From positions 1 through 39,738 of the forward strand of contig JACCXM010000235.1 in NCBI GenBank assembly GCA_013697005.1: a stretch of DNA of 39,738 nt. Direction: 5' to 3'. This DNA comes from Chloroflexia bacterium (GTDB lineage Bacteria > Chloroflexota > Chloroflexia > Thermomicrobiales > UBA6265). The translations under genes and the position numbers were made by a program. The notes beneath the pieces were generated by a model that did not search any database, was not told the DNA's origin, and saw only the letters and a list, made by a program, of their open reading frames with translations. Positions 3 through 16,600 of this stretch are shown here, piece by piece (the stretch's first letter is position 1; the number at the start of each line of letters is the position of its first letter).

Positions 3-239
3 CTTGCCCTGCCCGGACCGGTCGAAGCCCTGACCCTGGAGATCTCCGGTCTGATCGATGCCACCAGCCGCCAGGAGCTCCTGCCCGGCTTTCACTCCCG
101 TCGTCCCTGGCAACTCGCCGAAGCGAGTCGCCACCTCAAACAGCGGTTTGGCACATCCGGTCTCTATCGTGTCGTGGAGGTCGAGCCATGGTCGCGTCTT
201 CCAGAGCGCAGACAAACGCTGATCGCGTACGATCCCTGA
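3..239 (+). CDS. imuB: ImuB-like Y-family DNA polymerase, C-terminal end (partial)
   Basis: Only the last 78 codons lie in the window; the gene begins upstream. The reading frame from base 3 is open to TGA at 237-239 and ends in WSRLPERRQTLIAYDP. That ending is typical of the little-finger end of ImuB-type, Y-family-like proteins that work with DnaE2. In known mutasomes ImuB is a catalytically inactive Y-family protein that bridges the sliding clamp, ImuA/ImuA' and DnaE2. The next gene starts 52 bases before this stop, and dnaE2 follows about 1.2 kb later, which supports ImuB over an ordinary DinB. The catalytic region is outside the window, so whether it is an active polymerase cannot be judged. 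Confidence 0.8.
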   Translation, partial: LALPGPVEALTLEISGLIDATSRQELLPGFHSRRPWQLAEASRHLKQRFGTSGLYRVVEVEPWSRLPERRQTLIAYDP

Positions 240-475
240 ATCTGCCTCGTCCTGTTCGGGTCACGATCGATGGGCGGACTGGTCTGCCCATCACCCTGTA
301 CGAGCCAGGACGATCCCGTGCCATTGAGTGCGTTCAGGACTCCTGGCAGGTCGACGACGAATGGTGGCGAGAGCCCATCAGCCGCCGCTACCTCCAGGTC
401 ATCCTGCGCAACGGCGTGCTGCGCACCCTCTTCCACGACCGCATCGCTGACCGCTGGTTCGAGCAAACATATTGA
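188..475 (+). CDS. DUF6504 family protein of the mutasome cassette
   Basis: A 95-residue protein with the pattern of DUF6504: an N-terminal RPVRVTIDG segment, a central DSWQVDDEWW with paired tryptophans, then RRYLQVILRNG and a final DRWFEQTY. This family sits next to imuB and dnaE2 in actinobacteria and relatives; its biochemical role is unknown to me. The ATG at 188 gives a 52-base overlap with the end of imuB. I see no later ATG or GTG before the conserved RPVRV segment, so the long overlap appears real and suggests coupled translation. A short beta-rich domain is plausible. The family assignment rests on pattern recognition without a search. Confidence 0.72.
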   Translation: MVASSRAQTNADRVRSLNLPRPVRVTIDGRTGLPITLYEPGRSRAIECVQDSWQVDDEWWREPISRRYLQVILRNGVLRTLFHDRIADRWFEQTY

Positions 476-521: not shown

Positions 522-551
522 ACGTACGTACGTTCAATATCCGTCACGGAT
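522..551. repeat. Two adjacent short palindromes upstream of the structured region
   Basis: Bases 522-533 are a perfect 12-base palindrome, ACGTACGTACGT. Just after it, 539-551 is an inverted repeat with arms ATCCG and CGGAT around TCA. They lie 8-40 bases upstream of a promoter-like -35 at 559. Such symmetric sites often bind dimeric regulators, so they may be operators for the following unit. They do not match the GAAC-N4-GTTC LexA box of Gram-positive bacteria. Function is inference. Confidence 0.4.
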
Positions 552-558
552 GTCACAT

Positions 559-586
559 TTTACCCCTCTCAAAGTGTCTTTATATA
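559..586 (+). promoter_or_regulatory. Possible promoter before the candidate structured RNA
   Basis: TTTACC at 559-564 and TATATA at 581-586 are separated by 16 bases. Each matches four of six bases of the sigma-70 boxes. The T/A-rich stretch 579-588 stands out in otherwise GC-rich sequence. Transcription would start near 593-596, at the first hairpin of the candidate RNA, and could read into the unknown gene and dnaE2. Confidence 0.35.
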
Positions 587-594
587 TAGAGGAT

Positions 595-995
595 GCTCAC
601 CGGCGGTCGGCATTGTCGACCCCCACCGCCGCCCCATCCTCTCCCCGCCCCAACGCCCTGGGTCGGGTCCTCGCCGGAGACGTCACCCCAGCACTGCGGA
701 ACGATCGCCGCGGTCCCTGGTATCGCGCTCCTGCCATCTCGTATCCAGCGTCGATTGCGCCACCCTGGGTGTTTGGTCTGATGATCCACCCAGGAGGGAC
801 CCCCCACCGGTCTGCGGCTGCCGGCTCAGGCAGCCCGATGAACTTCCGCGTGGTGACATTCGTCACCACCTCCCCGGTCTGCACACCAAGCAGATACCCG
901 CTCAGGGCGTTGGGCGACGGGGGGAAGCGCGGAGGACGCGGGCACGTCCGGTGGTCGCCCCGGTGCCCCACCGCGCATGGGCAAGCTGTGCCCAT
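595..995 (+). ncRNA. Candidate structured RNA between DUF6504 and the dnaE2-coupled gene
   Basis: Bases 476-1018 hold no convincing protein gene but are dense in complementary segments. A long-range stem pairs 649-660 with 903-914 (12 perfect base pairs). It continues inward as 661-663 with 900-902 (with G-U pairs) and outward as 641-648 with 916-924 past two one-base bulges. Nested inside are 665-670 with 797-802, hairpin 764-771/787-794 (8 pairs), hairpin 816-822/829-835 (7 pairs), hairpin 850-857/862-869 (8 pairs, 4-base loop) and 878-882/890-894. Flanking hairpins are 601-607/625-631, 934-938/945-949 and 977-983/989-995. CCGGTCTGC occurs twice (807-815 and 874-882), so GCAGA at 890-894 has two possible partners. 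Strand is assumed from the promoter-like sequence and gene direction. I recognise no RNase P RNA, tmRNA or SRP RNA signature. Alternatives are a small non-autonomous mobile element with inverted ends, or chance pairing in GC-rich DNA. Confidence 0.42.
977..995 (+). promoter_or_regulatory. Perfect hairpin just upstream of the ribosome-binding site
   Basis: ATGGGCA (977-983) and TGCCCAT (989-995) flank a 5-base loop. The hairpin ends 14 bases before the GGAGG at 1010-1014. An in-frame ATG at 977 lies in its stem, which argues against that ATG as the start of the next gene. It could act as an operator or a translation-control hairpin, or be the last helix of the candidate RNA. No T-run follows, so it is not a typical terminator. 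Confidence 0.4.
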
Positions 996-1018
996 TATCC
1001 GTCACCCATGGAGGAATC

Positions 1019-1456
1019 ATGCACGCGTCACAAAAGAGAAAATCATCGCCAAACCGCACAGATACTACCCCGGAATCTGGCCCTGCCGGTGCCCCGCGTG
1101 ATGGCCTGGCCATGTTCCGGGCCCGGCTGGCAGCCGGCAACTACGACGCCGTGCTCGGTCGCGGGCTGCGTAACTCGCTCCGCGACGCCGCTACTGATAC
1201 CGGCCTCGAAACCGAGATCGGCGCCCTGCGCCTGACGCTGGCGCGGCTGCTCCAGGAGGAGACCAATCCCTCCCGGCTGGCCGCCGGTGTGGCGCGCGTG
1301 GCCGGCGTCGCGGTGCAGGCGGCACGGCTCCGTACCAATCCCGACGCGGACTTCGAGGAGCTCAGGTCGGTGCTGATGCGCGGCTTGGATACTATCGAAT
1401 CTGAGCGCGTCCGCGATGCCGGTGGCGAGCAGATCCTCGACTCCCATCACCAATGA
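1019..1456 (+). CDS. Unknown 145-residue protein translationally coupled to dnaE2
   Basis: ATG at 1019 is preceded by GGAGG at 1010-1014. An upstream in-frame ATG at 977 sits in a hairpin and is less likely. The first 30 residues are polar and basic. From about residue 35 the protein looks mainly helical, with Leu/Ala/Arg-rich segments such as EIGALRLTLARLL and LAAGVARVAGVAVQAARLR. No catalytic motif, signal peptide or membrane segment is visible. Its TGA overlaps the dnaE2 ATG (ATGA, 1453-1456), so the two are probably co-translated. From memory it loosely resembles small helical proteins found in several copies in Chloroflexota genomes, some with GNxNA-type N-termini; that motif is absent here and the link is weak. 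It could be a mutasome accessory factor or a passenger that arrived with the preceding hairpin-rich DNA. Confidence 0.7.
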   Translation: MHASQKRKSSPNRTDTTPESGPAGAPRDGLAMFRARLAAGNYDAVLGRGLRNSLRDAATDTGLETEIGALRLTLARLLQEETNPSRLAAGVARVAGVAVQAARLRTNPDADFEELRSVLMRGLDTIESERVRDAGGEQILDSHHQ

Positions 1457-4400
1457 CTGACTACGTCGAGCTCCATCTCCACACCGCTTTTTCGTTCCTC
1501 GATGGCGCTTCCCTGCCGGAGGAGATGGTCGGCCAGGCCGCAGATTTGGGATACCGGGCATTGGCCATCACCGATCACGATGGACTCCACGGCGCCATGG
1601 AGTTCGCGCGGGCGGCACGGGCAGCCGGCATCGCCCCCATTACCGGCGCCGAGCTGACGCTCACCGATGGCTCACACCTCACCCTTCTTGCCGAAACCGT
1701 CGAGGGGTATTCCAACCTGAGCCGGCTCATCACCGCCGCTTACGCCGGACCAAATGTCCCCGCGCAGGACGGCGTCATTGCCTTCTCTCCGCCGCGCGAG
1801 GTCTGGCAACGGGACGAAGAACGGAAACCCCGTCTCGATCCCGCGCTGCTCGCCGCACACGCTCAGGGACTGATCCTGCTCACCGGCTGCCGGCGCGGCG
1901 CGTTCTCACGCCTGGTCGACGCCGAACGCTGGAATGACGCCCGCGCCCTGCTCAATCGTTATGTCGAGTTGTTTGGCGCCGAGAACATCGCGATCGAGCT
2001 CCAACACAATCTCGTCTTCGGCGACTCCCGCCGCATCGCTGCCCTCTCCCTTCTCGCCCAGGACGCCGCTCTGCGCACGGTCGCTACCGGGAATGTTCAC
2101 TATCACCATCAGCAGCGGCGCCGGCTCCAGGATGTGCTCGTCGCCATCAGGCATCGCACCACCCTCGATGGCTGCCACCGTGAGCGACTGCCGAACGCGG
2201 AGTTTTACCTTCGTTCGCCGGAGGAAGCGGCCGCGCGGTTTGCGGCGTACCCGGAGGCCGTGCGCAACACCGCCGTTCTCGCCGAGCGCTGCGCCGCGTT
2301 CGATCTCACCCGCGATCTCGCGTATCTCTTCCCGCGCTACCCCACGCCACCTGGGCAGACACCGGATGCTGTGCTCGCCGGGATTTGCCGCGGCGAAGTG
2401 CGGCGCCGCTATGCCCCTCAAGACTGGCCGGCCGCGGAAGCACGGCTCGATCAGGAGCTGCACCTGATCACCAGACACGGGCTATCCGGGTTTTTCCTCC
2501 TCTATCGCGATTTGCTTGAGTTGGCGCGCGAGGTTTCGGTCGAGCTCCGCGGTCCTGACGGATTCGCTGCCAGCCTCCCTCCCGGGCGCGGGCGTGGCTC
2601 CTCGGTCGGCTCGATCGTCTGCTACCTGATCGGACTCTCTCACGTCGATCCGCTCGCCCACAACCTGATGCTGGGCCGCTTCATCAACGACGAGATGAGC
2701 TCGATTCCGGATATCGATCTCGATTTCCCGCGCGAGATTCGTGAACGGCTGATCGAGCGCGTCTACGAGCGCTTCGGCGCCAATCATGCCGCTCTCGTCT
2801 GCGCCTTTCCTACCTATCGTCTCCGCTCCGCGCTGCGTGATGTCGGCAAAGCGCTCGGCATCCCGATCGCCGATCTCGACCGCATCTCCAAACTCAGCGA
2901 GCCACGCCTGGCGGGAGACCTCGGTCTCGAGCTGGCGCGCATCCCGGAATACGCGGCGCGCCTCGAAGCACCCCCCTGGCGCTACCTGGTGGAGCTGTCC
3001 GGGGAGCTGGCTGGGTTTCCTCGCCACGTCTCGCAACACTCCGGCGGCATGATCATCTCCTCGGCGCCGCTGGTCGATCTCGTGCCGGTCCAACCCGCAT
3101 CGATGGCGGGGCGGTATCTGTGCCAATGGGACAAGGATTCCTGCGACGATGCGGGGTTCATCAAGATCGACTTCCTCGCGCTCGGCATGCTTTCTCTCGT
3201 CGAAGAGGCACTTCGTCTCATCCCCGCCAATGGCAAATCACCAGTCGATCTCAGCCGGATCGATTTTACCGACCAGACCGTCTACGACATGATCTGCACC
3301 GGGGACACGATCGGCACCTTCCAGATCGAGAGCCGGGCCCAGATCCAGACCCTGCTGCGCACTCAGCCCCGCTGCCTCGAAGACCTCATCGTGCAGGTGG
3401 CGATCGTGCGCCCAGGACCCATCATCGGTGGTGCCGTCAATCCCTATATCCAGCATCGCGAGCTCACCCGGCGCGGCACTGCCCCCCCGATACTCTACGA
3501 TCACCCGCTTCTGGAATCGGTTCTGCGGGAAACGCTCGGCGTTGTCCTCTATCAGGAGCAAGTCCTCGGTGTCGCGATGGCGCTGGCGGGATTCAGCGCC
3601 GGTCAGGCCGACCAGCTCCGTCGCGCCATGACCCGCAAACGGTCACGCGAGGCCATGATTCGCCTTTGGGATCAATTTCGTGAAGGTGCCCTCAACCGTG
3701 GTGTCGATAAGCCCACGGCCAGCAAAGTCTTCAAGAAACTCATTGGCTTTGCGGAGTACGGTTTTCCCAAGAGCCACGCAACGGCATTCGCCATCCTCGC
3801 CTACCAATCGTCATGGCTCAAGCACTACTACCCGGCCGAGTTCGTCTGCGCGCTGCTGAACAATCAGCCGATGGGATTCTATCCGCCGCACGTCCTGACC
3901 AACGACGCCAAGCGCCATGGGGTTCGTATTCTGCCGCCCGGTATCAACGAGAGCGGTGTGAAATGTTCGGTCGCCGGCAACGCGGTTCGTATCGGGTTGG
4001 GATATGTCGCGGAGGTCGGGGAGAGTATCGCCGCCCATCTCGTCGCCGAACGCAACACCGCGGGTCCATTCCAGTCACTCGCCGACGTCATGCGCCGGGC
4101 GCCATTACGCATCGAAGCCGCCGAAAGTTTGGTTGGCGTTGGCATCGCCGATAGTTTCGGTCTCGGCCGTCGCGAGGCGCTCTGGCAGCTCGGTCTCTTC
4201 CTCCCGGCGCGCGCCTTCGGCGGCAAGAGCGGCAAGACACCGGGTCGCCAGCTCCCCATTCCCTTACCCGTCGTGCAGGATATGGTCGCTCTGCGTCCAA
4301 TGGGTCCCTGGGAGCAGATGGCGTCTGATTACGCCACCATGGGACTCTCGCCTCGCTATCACCCGCTTGGTCTGCTGCGGCCACGCCTGCCCCGCGCCAT

Positions 4401-4821
4401 CCGCTCGACGGCAGAGATTCCGCGAATTTCGGATGGCTCCCGCATTCAGGTCGCGGGGCTCATCGTCTGCCGGCAGCGCCCAGGCACCGCCAAAGGCATT
4501 ACCTTCCTGCTACTGGAGGACGAGCATGGACTGCTCAATGTCATCGTCTTTCCAGACCTCTACAGCGAACAGCGCCATATCGTGAGAGGTGAGCCGTTCG
4601 TCGTTATCGAGGGCGTGCTCCAAAAACGCAACAACACGATCAACCTGGTCGCCGAGCGGCTCTGGCCACTCTCGGAAGCCCGCGCCCAATTCCAGATTCC
4701 AGACAATATTGGACAACCAGATCACAGAGACATCGACGTCGCTGCCCAGCAAAGCGAAGACACGCAAACCGGTCTTGATCACGTTCGCCTGATCGCGCCA
4801 GCCTCACACAGCTATCACTGA
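1453..4821 (+). CDS. dnaE2: Error-prone DNA polymerase III alpha subunit DnaE2
   Basis: A 1122-residue C-family polymerase, a usual length for DnaE2. It starts with a PHP domain (ELHLHT, H8 and H10; TDHDG, D41-H42; GNVHYHH near residue 215). The palm holds GRGRGSSVGS and PDIDLDF, giving catalytic aspartates D420 and D422; the third is D573 in IKIDFLALG. Helix-hairpin-helix sequence lies at about 875-905 and an OB fold at about 998-1075. QLGLF at 912-916, between these last two, matches the consensus sliding-clamp motif at the position where replicative DnaE carries one. DnaE2 performs mutagenic translesion synthesis with ImuA' and ImuB. The imuB-DUF6504 context supports DnaE2 over the replicative DnaE1. 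The ATG at 1453 overlaps the preceding stop. It converges on the glycosylase gene 40 bases downstream. Confidence 0.93.
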   Translation: MTDYVELHLHTAFSFLDGASLPEEMVGQAADLGYRALAITDHDGLHGAMEFARAARAAGIAPITGAELTLTDGSHLTLLAETVEGYSNLSRLITAAYAGPNVPAQDGVIAFSPPREVWQRDEERKPRLDPALLAAHAQGLILLTGCRRGAFSRLVDAERWNDARALLNRYVELFGAENIAIELQHNLVFGDSRRIAALSLLAQDAALRTVATGNVHYHHQQRRRLQDVLVAIRHRTTLDGCHRERLPNAEFYLRSPEEAAARFAAYPEAVRNTAVLAERCAAFDLTRDLAYLFPRYPTPPGQTPDAVLAGICRGEVRRRYAPQDWPAAEARLDQELHLITRHGLSGFFLLYRDLLELAREVSVELRGPDGFAASLPPGRGRGSSVGSIVCYLIGLSHVDPLAHNLMLGRFINDEMSSIPDIDLDFPREIRERLIERVYERFGANHAALVCAFPTYRLRSALRDVGKALGIPIADLDRISKLSEPRLAGDLGLELARIPEYAARLEAPPWRYLVELSGELAGFPRHVSQHSGGMIISSAPLVDLVPVQPASMAGRYLCQWDKDSCDDAGFIKIDFLALGMLSLVEEALRLIPANGKSPVDLSRIDFTDQTVYDMICTGDTIGTFQIESRAQIQTLLRTQPRCLEDLIVQVAIVRPGPIIGGAVNPYIQHRELTRRGTAPPILYDHPLLESVLRETLGVVLYQEQVLGVAMALAGFSAGQADQLRRAMTRKRSREAMIRLWDQFREGALNRGVDKPTASKVFKKLIGFAEYGFPKSHATAFAILAYQSSWLKHYYPAEFVCALLNNQPMGFYPPHVLTNDAKRHGVRILPPGINESGVKCSVAGNAVRIGLGYVAEVGESIAAHLVAERNTAGPFQSLADVMRRAPLRIEAAESLVGVGIADSFGLGRREALWQLGLFLPARAFGGKSGKTPGRQLPIPLPVVQDMVALRPMGPWEQMASDYATMGLSPRYHPLGLLRPRLPRAIRSTAEIPRISDGSRIQVAGLIVCRQRPGTAKGITFLLLEDEHGLLNVIVFPDLYSEQRHIVRGEPFVVIEGVLQKRNNTINLVAERLWPLSEARAQFQIPDNIGQPDHRDIDVAAQQSEDTQTGLDHVRLIAPASHSYH

Positions 4822-7648: not shown

Positions 7649-10071
<2,423 letters not shown>

Positions 10072-10090
10072 TCTTTTGGCGCCACCGGAA

Positions 10091-10690
10091 TCATTCTGAT
10101 CTTCCGGCGATTCGCGTCGTTCCGGGTTTGGTCAATGGCTCTCCCGCGGCACATAATGGACAATCGCTCGGTTCCCAGTTAGCCACCGTCATATGCAGCA
10201 AGGCATCAATCGGTATTCCGATATCCACCGCACCGTCGCTGCGGTCAACTAGCACCGCAACGCCGATAGCCTCGATACCTTCTTCGTGCAGGGCGCTCAG
10301 CGTTTCGCGGATTGATCCCCCGGTAGTCAGGATATCGTCGACGATCAAGACGCGCGCTCCATGAGAAAACGTCGTGCCGCGCCGGAACTCGCGTTTGCTG
10401 TCTCCTACCTCCGACCGCTCCGCGTAGGCGGCAAGACTCCCGAGTTGCCGGGCCACTTCAAAAGCCAGAATGACACCACCCGTCGTCGGTCCCGCCACAA
10501 CGTCGACATTTTGATGCCGAAAACGATCTGCGATAAGGGCGCAAACCTGTGAAGTCAAAACCGGCTGCCTCAGCAGATTGAATTTTTCGATATATTGATC
10601 GCTATGGCGCCCCGACGAGAGTTGAAAATGACCCTGCTGTAGCGCCTCGGATGTCCGTAGCGCGGCCTCAATGCCGTTCGTCGCGTCCAC
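10091..10690 (-). CDS. pyrE: Orotate phosphoribosyltransferase
   Basis: A 199-residue PRTase that converts orotate and PRPP to orotidine 5'-phosphate, the fifth step of UMP synthesis. The PRPP loop is VLIVDDILTTGGS, and the N-terminal SSGRHSDQYIEK is typical of PyrE. The C-terminus carries CPLCAAGEPLTKPG, seen in longer PyrE forms. It is the last gene of the pyr operon, 9 bases after cax. OMP decarboxylase (pyrF) is not in the window. Confidence 0.93.
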   Translation of the reverse strand: MDATNGIEAALRTSEALQQGHFQLSSGRHSDQYIEKFNLLRQPVLTSQVCALIADRFRHQNVDVVAGPTTGGVILAFEVARQLGSLAAYAERSEVGDSKREFRRGTTFSHGARVLIVDDILTTGGSIRETLSALHEEGIEAIGVAVLVDRSDGAVDIGIPIDALLHMTVANWEPSDCPLCAAGEPLTKPGTTRIAGRSE

Positions 10691-10699
10691 CCAGCTCCC

Positions 10700-11752
10700 T
10701 CATCCGACGAAGTAGAACGACAAGCCGAGCATCAGGTAAAGTGCGAGCAGTTGCGCTCCCTCCAACCAATTCGATTCCCCATCCACGGAGATCAGAACCG
10801 CGATCAGCGCGGCGCCAATCAGACCTGCCAGCTCGTAACTGTTGAAGACCAGAGTCATCGGATTGCCGAGCAGGACGCTGATCCAGACCAACAAGGGTGT
10901 CACGAAAAGCGCGATCTGCAGACCCGATCCTATCGCGATGCCCAAACTCAGGTCCATCTTGTTTTGGTAAGCAACCTGCACCGCGACAATGTGTTCGGCG
11001 ATATTGCCCACAAATGGAACCAGCATCACGCCTATGAACAATTCAGACAAACCCCATTGTTCCGCCACTGGCTCGACCGCGCCGACCAGAAGTTCACTCA
11101 TGAAGACAATGCCGATGGTCGTCACGGCCATCAGCCCGAGCGCCATCGGAAGTTTCATCGACGGAACATCGTTGTGTTCCCAGGCTTCGCCTTCCGGACT
11201 TTTCTGGCGAAGCGAAAACAAGATGTAGAGCGCATAGACCACGATGAGCACGATCGCCAGGCCGTCGCTCAATACCGAGACCGTTTCTTCGGACGGCCGC
11301 GTTGCCGCCGGACCGAGGGCGAACACAGCTGGAATCGTGAGCGACACCACCGCCAGCGCCATCATCGTCGCATTAGTTCCAGCAGTCTTGGCATCAAAAA
11401 ACTGTGTGCCGTTCTTGAGACCGCCAAGCAGCAGCGACAATCCCAAGACCACGAGAATATTTCCGATGATCGAGCCCGCGATCGAGGCTTTGACCAATTC
11501 GACCAAACCTTCGCGCAATGCGATGATCGTGATGATCAGCTCGGCCGCATTGCCCAGCGTCGCATTCAACAGGGCGCCTATCTTCGGGCCGGTATAAATC
11601 GCTGCCTCTTCGGTCGCGCGACCAAGAAGTCCCGCGAGCGGAATCAATGCTACGGCGGACGCAATGAAGACGGCGGTCGGGCCACCAATGTGTGCAAATT
11701 CGAGAACGAGCGCCACCGGCACCAGCACTAGCAATGGCAGGATAAACTTCAT
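10700..11752 (-). CDS. Ca2+/H+ antiporter (CaCA family, Cax type)
   Basis: A 350-residue integral membrane protein with about 10-11 hydrophobic segments in two halves. Each half has the alpha-repeat signature of Ca2+/cation exchangers: GNAAELI near residue 68 and GNIAEHIVAV near residue 249. The family expels Ca2+ from the cytoplasm in exchange for H+. The acidic region between the halves (SPEGEAWEHND) is typical. Its ATG overlaps the pyrD stop (ATGA) and pyrE starts 9 bases after its end, so it is embedded in the pyr operon. A transporter here is unexpected and has no obvious link to UMP synthesis. Confidence 0.9.
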   Translation of the reverse strand: MKFILPLLVLVPVALVLEFAHIGGPTAVFIASAVALIPLAGLLGRATEEAAIYTGPKIGALLNATLGNAAELIITIIALREGLVELVKASIAGSIIGNILVVLGLSLLLGGLKNGTQFFDAKTAGTNATMMALAVVSLTIPAVFALGPAATRPSEETVSVLSDGLAIVLIVVYALYILFSLRQKSPEGEAWEHNDVPSMKLPMALGLMAVTTIGIVFMSELLVGAVEPVAEQWGLSELFIGVMLVPFVGNIAEHIVAVQVAYQNKMDLSLGIAIGSGLQIALFVTPLLVWISVLLGNPMTLVFNSYELAGLIGAALIAVLISVDGESNWLEGAQLLALYLMLGLSFYFVG

Positions 11753-12753
11753 AATCCGCTAGCCTCCCGAAACCGGAAAAGGTGCGGGTCACCGCTACGG
11801 AATCCGACGTTGGCCAGACCGACGATCTGATTGAAAGATGAAAAACCTTCTTCATCCAGCCATTGCGACAGTTCGTCGATAAGTCGAATCGGGAGACCCG
11901 GATCGACGAAGATTCCCGTTCCTATCTGCACCGCACTCGCCCCTGCCAGAAAAAACTCGAGTGCGTCGTTGAGGCTCATGATGCCTCCCATGCCAACGAC
12001 TGGAATGCGCACCGCCGAGGCAACCTGATACACCATGCGCACCGCAATCGGTTTGATCGCGGGCCCGGAAACGCCACCAGTCTCGTTCGCCAACAAGGGA
12101 CGGCGACGGCGAACGTCAATCGCCATGCCAACCAGCGTATTGATCAAAGAGATCGCGTCAGCCCCTGCGGCTTCGACAGCGATCGCCACAGACACGATGT
12201 CCGACGCTCCTGGACTGAGTTTCACAATTATCGGCAATGTCGTCACCCCGCGGACGGCGCGGGTCACCTCTGCCGACATCTCCGCATCCCAACCGAAGCA
12301 ATATCCCCCGCGGCTGATATTCGGACAGGAAACGTTGATTTCGATCGCGGCAATTCCGGGTTGCTCATCGAGCATCGCGGCCATCATCGCGTAGTCATCC
12401 ACGGCTTCTGCCGAAATATTCACGATAGCGGGGACCGCCCAGGAGTCCCAAAGCGTTGGATACTTTTTGACGAAGCCGTGAATCCCTGGATTTTGCAGAC
12501 CGATGGCGTTGAGCATGCCGGCGGGCGTTTCGACAATTCTCGGCATGGCATTTCCAGCCCGTCGCTCTGGTGTAATCCCCTTGCTGACAAAGGCCCCCAG
12601 GCGCTGGATGTCAATAACCCCTGCGTATTCTTCGCCATACCCAAAACAGCCCGAGGCAGCCATGAAGGGGTTCCGTAGCAGGAGTTCGCGAGGGTTATGC
12701 GGCGCCAGGTCAACCGCAAGATCCGCCGTCCCGTGGCTCGTGACCGCGGTCAT
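11749..12753 (-). CDS. pyrD: Dihydroorotate dehydrogenase, class 1B catalytic subunit
   Basis: A 334-residue FMN enzyme that oxidises dihydroorotate to orotate. Class 1B is shown by the catalytic cysteine (C143 in NVSCPN) and by the adjacent pyrK. Other motifs are NPFMAASGCFGYG near the N-terminus, IVKLSP, and the FMN phosphate site VVGMGGIMS...QIGTG. I chose ATG at 12753, 28 bases after the pyrK stop. A longer frame from GTG at 12825 would overlap pyrK and adds 24 residues unlike the family. Neither start has a clear Shine-Dalgarno. Confidence 0.92.
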   Translation of the reverse strand: MTAVTSHGTADLAVDLAPHNPRELLLRNPFMAASGCFGYGEEYAGVIDIQRLGAFVSKGITPERRAGNAMPRIVETPAGMLNAIGLQNPGIHGFVKKYPTLWDSWAVPAIVNISAEAVDDYAMMAAMLDEQPGIAAIEINVSCPNISRGGYCFGWDAEMSAEVTRAVRGVTTLPIIVKLSPGASDIVSVAIAVEAAGADAISLINTLVGMAIDVRRRRPLLANETGGVSGPAIKPIAVRMVYQVASAVRIPVVGMGGIMSLNDALEFFLAGASAVQIGTGIFVDPGLPIRLIDELSQWLDEEGFSSFNQIVGLANVGFRSGDPHLFRFREASGL

Positions 12754-12781
12754 CGTGCTGAAACTCGGAGTCTGGCGCTGG

Positions 12782-13624
12782 TCAAAAAACCACCTCGTCG
12801 AAATCGAAGACGGGTCCATCCACACAAGACGCGATCATGCCGCGCCGAGTCTCAACGACGCAACCCAGGCAGGCGCCGAAACCGCACGCCATCCCCCGTT
12901 CAACGGAAATTTGCACGCCGGGTTTCTTGTTTATGCGGTGCGTATCGGCGACGGTGCGCAGGGTGCGGTACATGGGCTCGGGACCGCATGCGTAAATCTG
13001 GTCAGCCCAATGAACGTAGTCACCGACGATCTCAGTTGCCAATCCGTGATGACCGCGGCTCCCGTCATCGGTCGCTACCACGTACTCCACTGGGCCCCGC
13101 AACTCCGACGCGGGAAGAAGTCCCGCTGCGTCGGCCGCGCCCATCACGAACACCACATCGAGTCCCCGCGCCACCGCTACATCAGAAAGCATCACCAATG
13201 GCGCCACGCCTACTCCACCAGCCAACATCAGCAACCGCTGCGCTCGCGGCGGAATGACAAATGAGTTACCCAGCGGTCCCAGTATCTCGAGCCGCTCACC
13301 AGGTGTGCGTCCTGCCAACCAGGCACTTCCCCGCCCGAAGGGCCTCACCAGGAACGTGAGCGAGCTCGGTTGCTGATGTGCCCGGTAGACGGAATATGGG
13401 CGGCGCAAGAGTGGATCAAAGGATCCCGGGAATCGGCAGCTGACGTTGAAGAACTGGCCAGAGTTCAGCCGCTGAACCACGGTCGTCGGTGCACTGACGG
13501 TCAAGAGGATGGCATCACCCATGGTGTGATCGACGGCCAACACCTGGCTTTCGAACTCCCGGGAAGTGCCCGTGGTCTCAACTTGGGCCAATTGCCGGCG
13601 CAAGAGCTTCGCCCTCTGACTCAT
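12782..13624 (-). CDS. pyrK: Dihydroorotate dehydrogenase electron-transfer subunit
   Basis: A 280-residue partner of PyrD 1B that passes electrons from FMN to NAD+ through FAD and a [2Fe-2S] cluster. Visible parts are a ferredoxin-reductase-like FAD domain (RRPYSVYRA), a nucleotide-binding domain (LMLAGGVGVAPL, YACGPEPMYRTL) and a C-terminal cluster motif CGFGACLGC ... C. ATG at 13624 lies 29 bases after carB. A longer open frame from 13768 overlaps carB by over 100 bases and adds sequence unlike PyrK, so I reject it. Confidence 0.92.
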   Translation of the reverse strand: MSQRAKLLRRQLAQVETTGTSREFESQVLAVDHTMGDAILLTVSAPTTVVQRLNSGQFFNVSCRFPGSFDPLLRRPYSVYRAHQQPSSLTFLVRPFGRGSAWLAGRTPGERLEILGPLGNSFVIPPRAQRLLMLAGGVGVAPLVMLSDVAVARGLDVVFVMGAADAAGLLPASELRGPVEYVVATDDGSRGHHGLATEIVGDYVHWADQIYACGPEPMYRTLRTVADTHRINKKPGVQISVERGMACGFGACLGCVVETRRGMIASCVDGPVFDFDEVVF

Positions 13625-13653
13625 TTCCACAAGTTGTGCTTCATCTTGCCGGG

Positions 13654-16600
13654 CTAGTAGCCGGACCCAGTCGTACGGTACTCCGGGTACGGCTGAACTG
13701 TGTAGCCCGCCGCCGCGCTCGACAACGCGGCCACAACCGTACGTGCCGTATCTATCGACGTAATGCACGGAACTCCGCGTTCGACCGCGGCGCGGCGAAT
13801 TTCGATTCCATCCAGAATCTCTTTGTCAGCGGGTCCGGGAGTGTTGATGACGCAGTCGATGGTGCGCTCCAGGATCACGTCCAGCATGTCGGGATGTCCC
13901 CGTCCAATCCGCTTTGTCACCATTTGCACTGGCATTCCGTGGCGTTCGATGAGCGCGGCGGTCCCTTCCGTGGCATACAACTTGTGTCCCAGCATCACAA
14001 GTTGGCGAATCATGTCAACGCCTTCAGATTTGTCTTCGTCGGCCAGGGTTATCAGCACCGAGCCCAGTGCGGGCAAGGCAAGCCCCGCCGCGACCAGTGC
14101 CTTGTGAAACGCGGGCTCGAAGGCGCGATCGATCCCCATTACCTCGCCTGTTGACTTCATTTCCGGTCCCAGGTGAGTGTCGACGCCCCGTAACTTGGCC
14201 ATGGAGAAGACCGGCGCCTTCACGGCGACGAGGGGCTGCCGAGGCCACAATCCGCCAGTGAAACCCTGGTCCGCGAGCGAACGACCGAGCATGACGCCTG
14301 TTGCCAGGCGTACCATCGGGACTCCCGTGGCCTTACTCAAGAAGGGAACCGTTCGTGATGCTCGCGGGTTCACCTCGAGCACGTAGATGCGCCCGGCGTG
14401 GATGACGAACTGAATATTGATCAGACCACATGCCTTGAGCCCAGTCGCGATCCGCGTCGTGTAGTTAACGACGGTGTCGACTTGGGCCGGAAACAGATTG
14501 AGCGCCGGGTAGACGGCAAAGGAATCGCCGGAATGAACACCCGCGCGCTCGATATGCTCCATGATCCCCGGAATCAGCACCGCCATACCATCACTGATAG
14601 CGTCGACTTCGACTTCTCTTCCCAACAGATATTTGTCGATGAGCACGGGATGTTCGGGCGCCAGGTCTGCGGCGTTGCGAATGTATCGACTCAGTTGGTC
14701 CTGGCTGTAAACGACCTCCATGGCGCGGCCGCCGAGCACGTAGGATGGTCGCACCAGCACCGGATAGCCGATGCGCGCCGCAACCGCGCGCGCATCGGGC
14801 AATGATGTCACCGCCGCACCCGGCGGTTGCGGAATCCCCAAACCGCGGAGGAACCCTTCGAATCTGTGTCGGTCCTCGGCGAGATCGATGGAGTCCAGTT
14901 GGCTGCCGAGGATCGGCACGCCCCGGTCGACGAGGGTCGTCGCCAGATTGATTGCAGTTTGGCCGCCAAACTGGACGATGACGGGCACGTCCGCGGAGAC
15001 CGTGTCGTTTCCAGATTCATGACGGAGAATTTCAGCCACACTCTCGCTGTCGAGGGGCTCAAAGTACAATCGGTCCGATGCGTCAAAATCGGTCGAAACG
15101 GTCTCAGGATTCGAGTTGATCATGATCGAGGCAATCCCGCCGTCGTGCAGCGCTTGCGCGGCTTGCACGGCGGAGTAGTCGAATTCGATCCCCTGACCAA
15201 TGCGAATTGGTCCAGAACCGATGACAACCGCACGCTCCCTCCCCAGCGGCGCCGCCTCGTCTTCCTGTTCGTACGTTGAGTAGAAGTAGGGAGTCGCCGC
15301 CGAAAACTCGCCTGCGCACGTGTCGACCATCTTGTAGACGGGGAGCATTCCCGCGTCTTCTCTCATCTCCCGAATAGCTTTTTCGTTGCGTCGCGTGAGA
15401 AGTCCGATCGTCCGGTCGCTGAATCCAGCTCGCTTGGCACTCCAAAGGCACTCGAGTGTGATGTCATCGGCTGTGAGTCGCTGTTCGATCTTTACCACGC
15501 CATGTAACTTGGACAGGAACCAGCGATCGATACGACTCAGATCGTGAAGGCGATCGACGTCAACCCCGCGACGCAGCGCCGCCGCAATCGCCCACAACCG
15601 CAAGTCATTGGGGAGCTGCACCAGATCCTGAATCGTCTCGTCAGTCCATTGTGGGTCTTCCCACAGGAGATCTTTGGCGGTTGACTCGAGCGAACGCACC
15701 GCCTTCTGTAAGGCCCCTTCAAATGAGCGGTCAATAGCCATGACTTCGCCAGTAGATTTCATCTGGGTGCCGATCGTGCGATCGGCTTGGCCGAACTTGT
15801 CGAACGGCCATCGTGGGATCTTTACCACGACATAGTCCAGAGCCGGCTCAAAGGCTGCAGTCGTTTTCCCGGTAATGGGATTCACCAATTCGTCGAGCCG
15901 GCGCCCAATCGCGATCTTGGCCGCCATCCTGGCGATCGGGTACCCAGTCGCTTTGGAGGCGAGGGCGGACGAACGGCTCACCCGAGGGTTCACCTCGATT
16001 ACCGCATAGTTTGCTGAACAGGGATCGAGCGCAAACTGGACATTGCATCCGCCTTCGATACCCAGCGCGTCGATGATCCGCAACGCCGACGTCCGCAGCA
16101 TCTGATAGTCGTCATCACTCAATGTTTGCGACGGCGCGACGACAATGCTGTCCCCGGTGTGAATGCCCATGGGATCGAGATTTTCCATATTGCAGATGGT
16201 GATGCAGGTACCGAGGCTATCTCGCATGACCTCGTATTCGAGTTCCTTCCAACCCATGAGCGACCGCTCCACAAGAACCTGGTGAATTGGGCTGGCATTG
16301 AGTCCGCCTGCCACAATGAGATCCAACTCGGCGTGAGTGGTGGCGATACCGCCACCGGTACCGCCGAGGGTGTAGGCCGGTCTTACGACGAGGGGCAATG
16401 AAACGAGCTCGGTGAACGCCTTGGCTTGTTCGACCGACGTAACGATGGCGCTGTCGACGATTGGCTCACCAATGCTGATAAGAAGATCGCGAAAAAGCGC
16501 GCGATCTTCAGCCTGCTTGATCGCGGCCAGCGGCGTGCCCAGCATGCGCACGCCGTATCGATCGAGCGTGCCTTGCGCGGCCACCTGCACGGCCAGGTTG

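Follow-up and report, generated by a model that had tools for sequence, protein, structure and literature searches.

A candidate multicopy structured RNA with complementary hairpin loops in a Chloroflexota genus

We analysed a 39,738-nucleotide stretch of the genome of a Chloroflexia bacterium (hereafter the window), in which a gene-free span of 543 bases separates the end of a DUF6504-type gene at 475 from the next credible start at 1019. This gap had been predicted, and the ORF list bears it out. The features in and around it are as follows.

188 to 475, plus strand: gene for a small DUF6504-type protein; it overlaps imuB at the end of that gene and flanks the insertion on the left (ORF list).
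522 to 533, plus strand: palindromic ACGTACGTACGT followed by TCAATATC, an upstream module conserved in most copies of the RNA (alignment of ten promoter regions).
558 to 586, plus strand: promoter-like core, with TTTTAC (558-563), a 17-nt spacer and TATATA (581-586), the hexamers assigned by eye.
588 to 996, plus strand: candidate structured RNA of about 400 nt (homologous copies, hairpin covariation, no conserved frame).
1019 to 1456, plus strand: 145-aa ORF, a paralog of the protein encoded before a terminase-like gene (alignment).
1453 to 4821, plus strand: dnaE2, right neighbour of the insertion (Pfam PHP, DNA_pol3_alpha and DNA_pol3_finger).

The names DUF6504 and imuB are taken from the original prediction and from gene order. 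A Pfam search with the 95-aa DUF6504-type protein gave no match, and a gene of this type is conserved between ImuB and DnaE2 in relatives. At the other end of the gap, GGAGGA lies just 5' of the start at 1019, with the ribosome-binding site at about 1010-1015, and the stop codon of the ORF overlaps the start of dnaE2 (ATGA, 1453-1456).

The original prediction was built on a long stem and, as it stated, CCCAACGCCCTG (649-660) is exactly complementary to CAGGGCGTTGGG (903-914). Such a match had been thought rare by chance. A 12-bp inverted repeat with a spacing of 100-400 nt was present in 6 of 500 dinucleotide shuffles of the segment, and the whole window holds four, against a shuffled mean of 1.7; taken alone, the repeat is only moderately unusual. 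In the minimum-energy fold of the window segment we found both the long stem and the small inner hairpins that had also been predicted. The fold energy of the window copy was -208.6 kcal/mol, clearly below the shuffled controls (-180.5 +/- 6.1, z -4.6; z -3.5 with a second shuffle set). However, the reverse strand also folds (z -3.8 and -2.5 with the two sets), and the remaining copies lie only modestly below their shuffles on the plus strand (z -0.5 to -2.8). Fold energy alone is insufficient to make the case for a structured RNA.

Alignment with homologous copies altered the structural picture. A DNA search of the same genome revealed that the region of about 522-996 is one of six full copies, the others lying on contigs C364, C41, C293, C254 and C114, in addition to a fragment at a contig edge. 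Two further copies, on C248 and C261, were found in a genome of the same genus (G015). The nucleotide search that had been suggested did yield homologues, and our set of eight copies, or seven distinct sequences, the C41 and C114 copies being near-duplicates, comes from two genomes within a single genus. All copies but the one on C254 consist of a common promoter-like region followed by about 400 nt of intergenic, non-coding sequence, and copies other than that of the window sit in unrelated intergenic places. At the C254 copy (L012, reverse strand), a transposase-like insertion sequence replaces the promoter region and abuts the start of the RNA. The edge fragment (L090, C212, 1-130) begins inside an RNA copy whose 5' half lies in inverse orientation and meets the 3' half at the complementary loop sequence; this junction is probably either an assembly artefact or the product of recombination at the inverted repeat. 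The copies have no reading frame in common: differing frames match differing short pieces, and the indels are mostly not multiples of three. The central 200 nt or so of the RNA align poorly and contain a hairpin whose sequence differs from copy to copy. The helices are given below.

588 to 642, plus strand: 5' hairpin, outer arms 588-595/635-642, inner arms 602-607/625-630, with GUCGAC at 615-620.
644 to 667, plus strand: hairpin A, arms 644-652/659-667 (8 of 9 pairs formed here), loop ACGCCC at 653-658.
850 to 869, plus strand: perfect 8-bp hairpin GTGGTGAC-ATTC-GTCACCAC, in the window copy only (sequence and window fold).
870 to 924, plus strand: 3' domain, in which helix D (870-877/917-924) closes hairpins C and B.
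878 to 894, plus strand: hairpin C, UCUGC (878-882) with GCAGA (890-894), changed on both sides at 2 of 5 pairs.
900 to 915, plus strand: hairpin B, GCUCA (900-904) with UGGGC (911-915), loop GGGCGU at 905-910.
977 to 995, plus strand: terminal hairpin AUGGGCA-AGCUG-UGCCCAU (copy comparison).

Hairpin A carries the strongest covariation, with changes on both sides at five of its nine pairs and 91.7% of cells paired; none of 500 shuffles attained either its paired fraction or its covariation score. Helices D, C and B together had 93.4% of cells paired and four pairs changed on both sides; hairpin B had one such pair. The 5' hairpin, the terminal hairpin and the variable central hairpin were judged by eye from the copy comparison, the arm pairing of the first being that of the window fold; its palindromic GUCGAC is invariant in all eight copies. 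Near the 3' end, six of the eight have AGCUG and after it UGCCC or a similar sequence, and the hairpin at 850-869 has no alignment in other copies. Together with the lack of a common frame, these data uphold the prediction of a structured non-coding element.

The two loops, ACGCCC of hairpin A and GGGCGU of hairpin B, are both invariant in the eight copies and are complementary at all six positions. A three-helix model of A, B and the loop-loop pairing left 95.3% of cells paired, with six covarying pairs, whereas the 12-bp stem on the same copies showed no two-sided change at any pair and, in four of the seven distinct sequences, had lost its two 3'-most pairs. For lack of covariation, the long stem was rejected as the conserved helix. 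In the window and C41/C114 copies the complementarity runs past the loops to 12-13 bp, and this is what had been read as a long stem. Such an arrangement is rare: on the plus strand of the 39.7-kb window, we counted two pairs of local hairpins, A/B included, whose 6-nt loops are complementary and lie 100-400 nt apart. Hairpins A and B thus present two complementary loops on independently supported stems, which points to a loop-loop (kissing) contact; since the loops never vary, this pairing shows no covariation of its own. The U-G pairs of helix D (six at one pair) and the consensus folding energy of the full alignment (-65.4 for plus, -56.2 for minus) both favour the plus strand.

We then asked how far the family extends. 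When 61 genomes of the order were searched with a covariance model built on the 3' hairpins, no confident copy emerged besides those in the source genome and G015, and a genus search with laxer filters added none; in a 400-genome sample of the phylum, the sole two matches outside the source genome were marginal (E about 0.008). A pattern scan of genome contigs found the partner hairpin, among the matches listed (80 of 100), in just two contigs, both from one MAG, CALMZR, with copies at the same places as in G015. In viral contigs, none of the 3 and 45 pattern matches had both hairpins, and collections of phages and plasmids contained no match to the RNA. Two R1 matches, at G014:C238 and G001:C31, have an ordinary protein-coding context and seem due to chance; the ones at G372, G390, G015:C194 and G014:C313 and C394 are weak. 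Upstream of ORF paralogs without TerL (G024, G021, G009 and G027), neither loop pair was present. No Rfam family matched at gathering score in the window, nor did any match in seven copy-bearing loci; relaxed thresholds brought only chance-level matches to other families, and the Rfam covariance models of GOLLD, ROOL and OLE did not match either. By these comparisons, the RNA family appears to be absent from Rfam and, within the range of our searches, confined to a single Chloroflexota genus.

The prediction of a promoter-like sequence was correct in that such a region is there and is conserved among the copies, although a strict sigma-70 consensus scan called nothing. By its position, the core would start transcription near 591-595, and the palindrome at 522-533 is a possible operator. 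The RNA copies share this promoter type with a terminase-like locus, which has it in three genomes of the genus. When a profile of the region was run against 32 genomes of the family, its confident matches were the RNA copies, the terminase-like-locus promoter in three genomes, and only two extra sites: one near the terminase-like locus in G015, and one in G014, after which come a GAAC-N4-GTTC box and the gene of an AAA_25-domain protein. At L203 (G014:C188, reverse strand, from about base 901 onward), the promoter type overlaps a perfect LexA-type box, GAACATATGTTC, and stands upstream of a 210-aa ORF and of the gene for an AAA_25-domain protein similar to phage primase/helicase families. The lexA gene of the source genome carries a LexA-type site, GAACATGTGTTC, and in three other genera GTCCCATTTT followed by a LexA-type box lies upstream of the terminase locus. 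SOS control of the RNA promoter was considered and rejected, as no GAAC-N4-GTTC operator occurs among the aligned RNA promoters. In the window, the sole site of this type is GAACGAGTGTTC at 9017-9028.

The terminase-like locus has features of its own. Of 32 genomes in the family, 22 have a terminase-like gene with a small protein gene before it, often as one copy each (L241, L242, L246). The match of its product to PHROG terminase large subunit families is weak (E 1e-5 here, 2.7e-10 in G021). In G021 (L241, C1:15001-35000, 8413-15014), a major capsid protein (PHROG 212, E 1e-68) is encoded about 4 kb downstream of the terminase-like gene. In G014, G015, G004, G027 and G006 (L057, L055, L063, L064 and L067), the terminase match is broken near residue 353 with the frame left open, which implies an in-frame insertion of variable length. 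This recurrent locus looks like a domesticated or relict phage module. Homologs of the 145-aa ORF are found in 37 of 61 genomes of the order, and its product is predicted to be all-helical, with five helices (pLDDT 80). The position of its relative before the terminase-like gene, the sole ground for such an assignment, suggests a small terminase (TerS); Pfam and PHROG gave no match and Foldseek none at E below 0.001, so that none of the three returned a TerS fold or sequence. Both the ORF at 1019-1456 and its C293 paralog lack the Cys/His N terminus of the pre-terminase protein. After the ORF paralog on C293 (L011, about 2382-2406) lies a perfect hairpin, TTGCGCTGAG-GATTG-CTCAGCGCAA, which overlaps the stop codon of the paralog and is not followed by a T run.

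The location within a mutasome operon, part of the original prediction, is true of the window copy; the copies elsewhere occupy unrelated sites. In three relatives of the same genus (G013, G014 and G015), and in more distant relatives as well, dnaE2 comes next after DUF6504 with neither the RNA nor the ORF between them, the gap in G013 being only about 25 bases. We conclude that a cassette of promoter, RNA and ORF was added in the lineage of the source genome. As a consequence, the mutasome neighbourhood provides no clue to the general function of the RNA, and a mutasome-specific role is not supported. Given the overlap of the ORF stop with the dnaE2 start, dnaE2 may now be served by the RNA promoter as well.

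Taken together, these findings lead us to favour, with modest confidence, the reading that this segment holds one of several gene copies encoding a structured non-coding RNA of about 400 nt, transcribed from the plus strand from its own promoter. In this RNA, hairpin A on the 5' side and hairpin B on the 3' side would be joined by a 6-bp kissing contact, either within one molecule, which would bring its two ends together, or between molecules, giving dimers or multimers. The RNA would act in trans, and it would have come from, or be controlled with, a phage-derived DNA-packaging module. Two observations lead us to this view: a promoter of the same type stands before the terminase-like locus, and the window copy travels with a paralog of the first gene of that locus. 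The position between DUF6504 and dnaE2 is a recent addition, which may have placed a second promoter upstream of dnaE2. A trans-acting RNA from a phage-derived module is, on promoter resemblance and gene neighbourhood, the most likely explanation. We regard a bolder version as a long shot: a new RNA family that works with a domesticated phage packaging system, its copies spread over the chromosome with promoters common to the terminase locus, and that self-assembles through ACGCCC/GGGCGU, and possibly GUCGAC, into dimers or multimers binding the packaging machine or its small protein.

The main rival is a non-autonomous mobile DNA element, in which the hairpins act as DNA, for instance as folds recognised by a transposase or recombinase, and the transcript is incidental. 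We consider it less probable than the RNA gene, yet a serious contender. Copies are dispersed, the site is empty in the three relatives of the same genus, both strands fold, and the C212 fragment joins inverted halves. The C41 and C114 copies moreover share a 433-bp unit that is 97% identical in differing surroundings. However, their divergence begins inside a promoter that both retain upstream, and these promoters, though homologous, differ from each other; conversion between copies already in place would explain this better than the fresh insertion of a unit. Neither terminal inverted repeats nor target duplications were recognised, a conserved promoter stands directly before the folded part, and the U-G pairs of helix D are biased to one strand. 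Because of the nearly identical unit, the element may well be both a non-coding RNA gene and mobile DNA.

A cis-acting leader controlling transcription or translation of the 145-aa ORF, and here also of dnaE2, is rather improbable. It would agree with the two copies (window and C293) that lie directly upstream of paralogous ORFs and, in the window, with the overlap of the ORF and dnaE2. In contrast, no ORF of this kind follows the other four full copies of the genome, in C24 a promoter of this type stands before the ORF without an intervening RNA, and the ribosome-binding site lies outside the terminal hairpin. Far less credible is a guide RNA of an IscB or TnpB system, the HEARO/omega-RNA comparison drawn originally from an RNA followed by a small ORF, an arrangement seen in two copies. 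HEARO was not detected by Rfam in the window or in the seven copy-bearing loci, nor up to E = 1 in 480-1020, and the five-helix ORF product is not nuclease-like. Protein-coding sequence with incidental folding, to which open frames of up to about 183 aa in this GC-rich stretch might point, is equally implausible and is disfavoured by the absence of a conserved frame.

Several known RNAs invite comparison with the trans-acting RNA that we favour. GOLLD and ROOL are structured bacterial RNAs of phages and prophages with intra- and intermolecular kissing loops (PMC12286853). Our candidate would resemble them in architecture, its loop contact being predicted from conservation; it differs in being dispersed over the chromosome and without an Rfam match, and at about 400 nt it is shorter than the many GOLLD members that exceed 800 nt. 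OLE is an extensively structured bacterial non-coding RNA that dimerises, one of the contacts being a kissing loop (PMC12286853); it is about 600 nt long (PMC9723947) and has known protein partners. Our RNA shares neither sequence nor an Rfam match with it. The HEARO RNA of IscB systems (omega RNA) is likewise structured, can precede an ORF and is tied to mobile elements, whereas an ORF is absent beside most of our copies and none resembling IscB or TnpB was seen at any of them. The pRNA of phi29-type phages multimerises by complementary loops and works with the DNA-packaging motor. The terminase-like locus that shares the promoter type of our RNA recalls this arrangement by analogy only, and phi29 pRNA is much shorter.

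In summary, our results add a candidate RNA family absent from Rfam, with a testable loop-loop contact and a promoter common to a phage-derived packaging locus. Multicopy structured RNAs restricted to one genus are easily missed by broad surveys. The analysis also illustrates that a strong long-range stem predicted in one sequence can resolve into two kissing hairpins when further copies are aligned with it. If the packaging link is true, this would be a large self-interacting RNA tied to a domesticated phage function, and it would bear on what the large RNAs associated with phages do.
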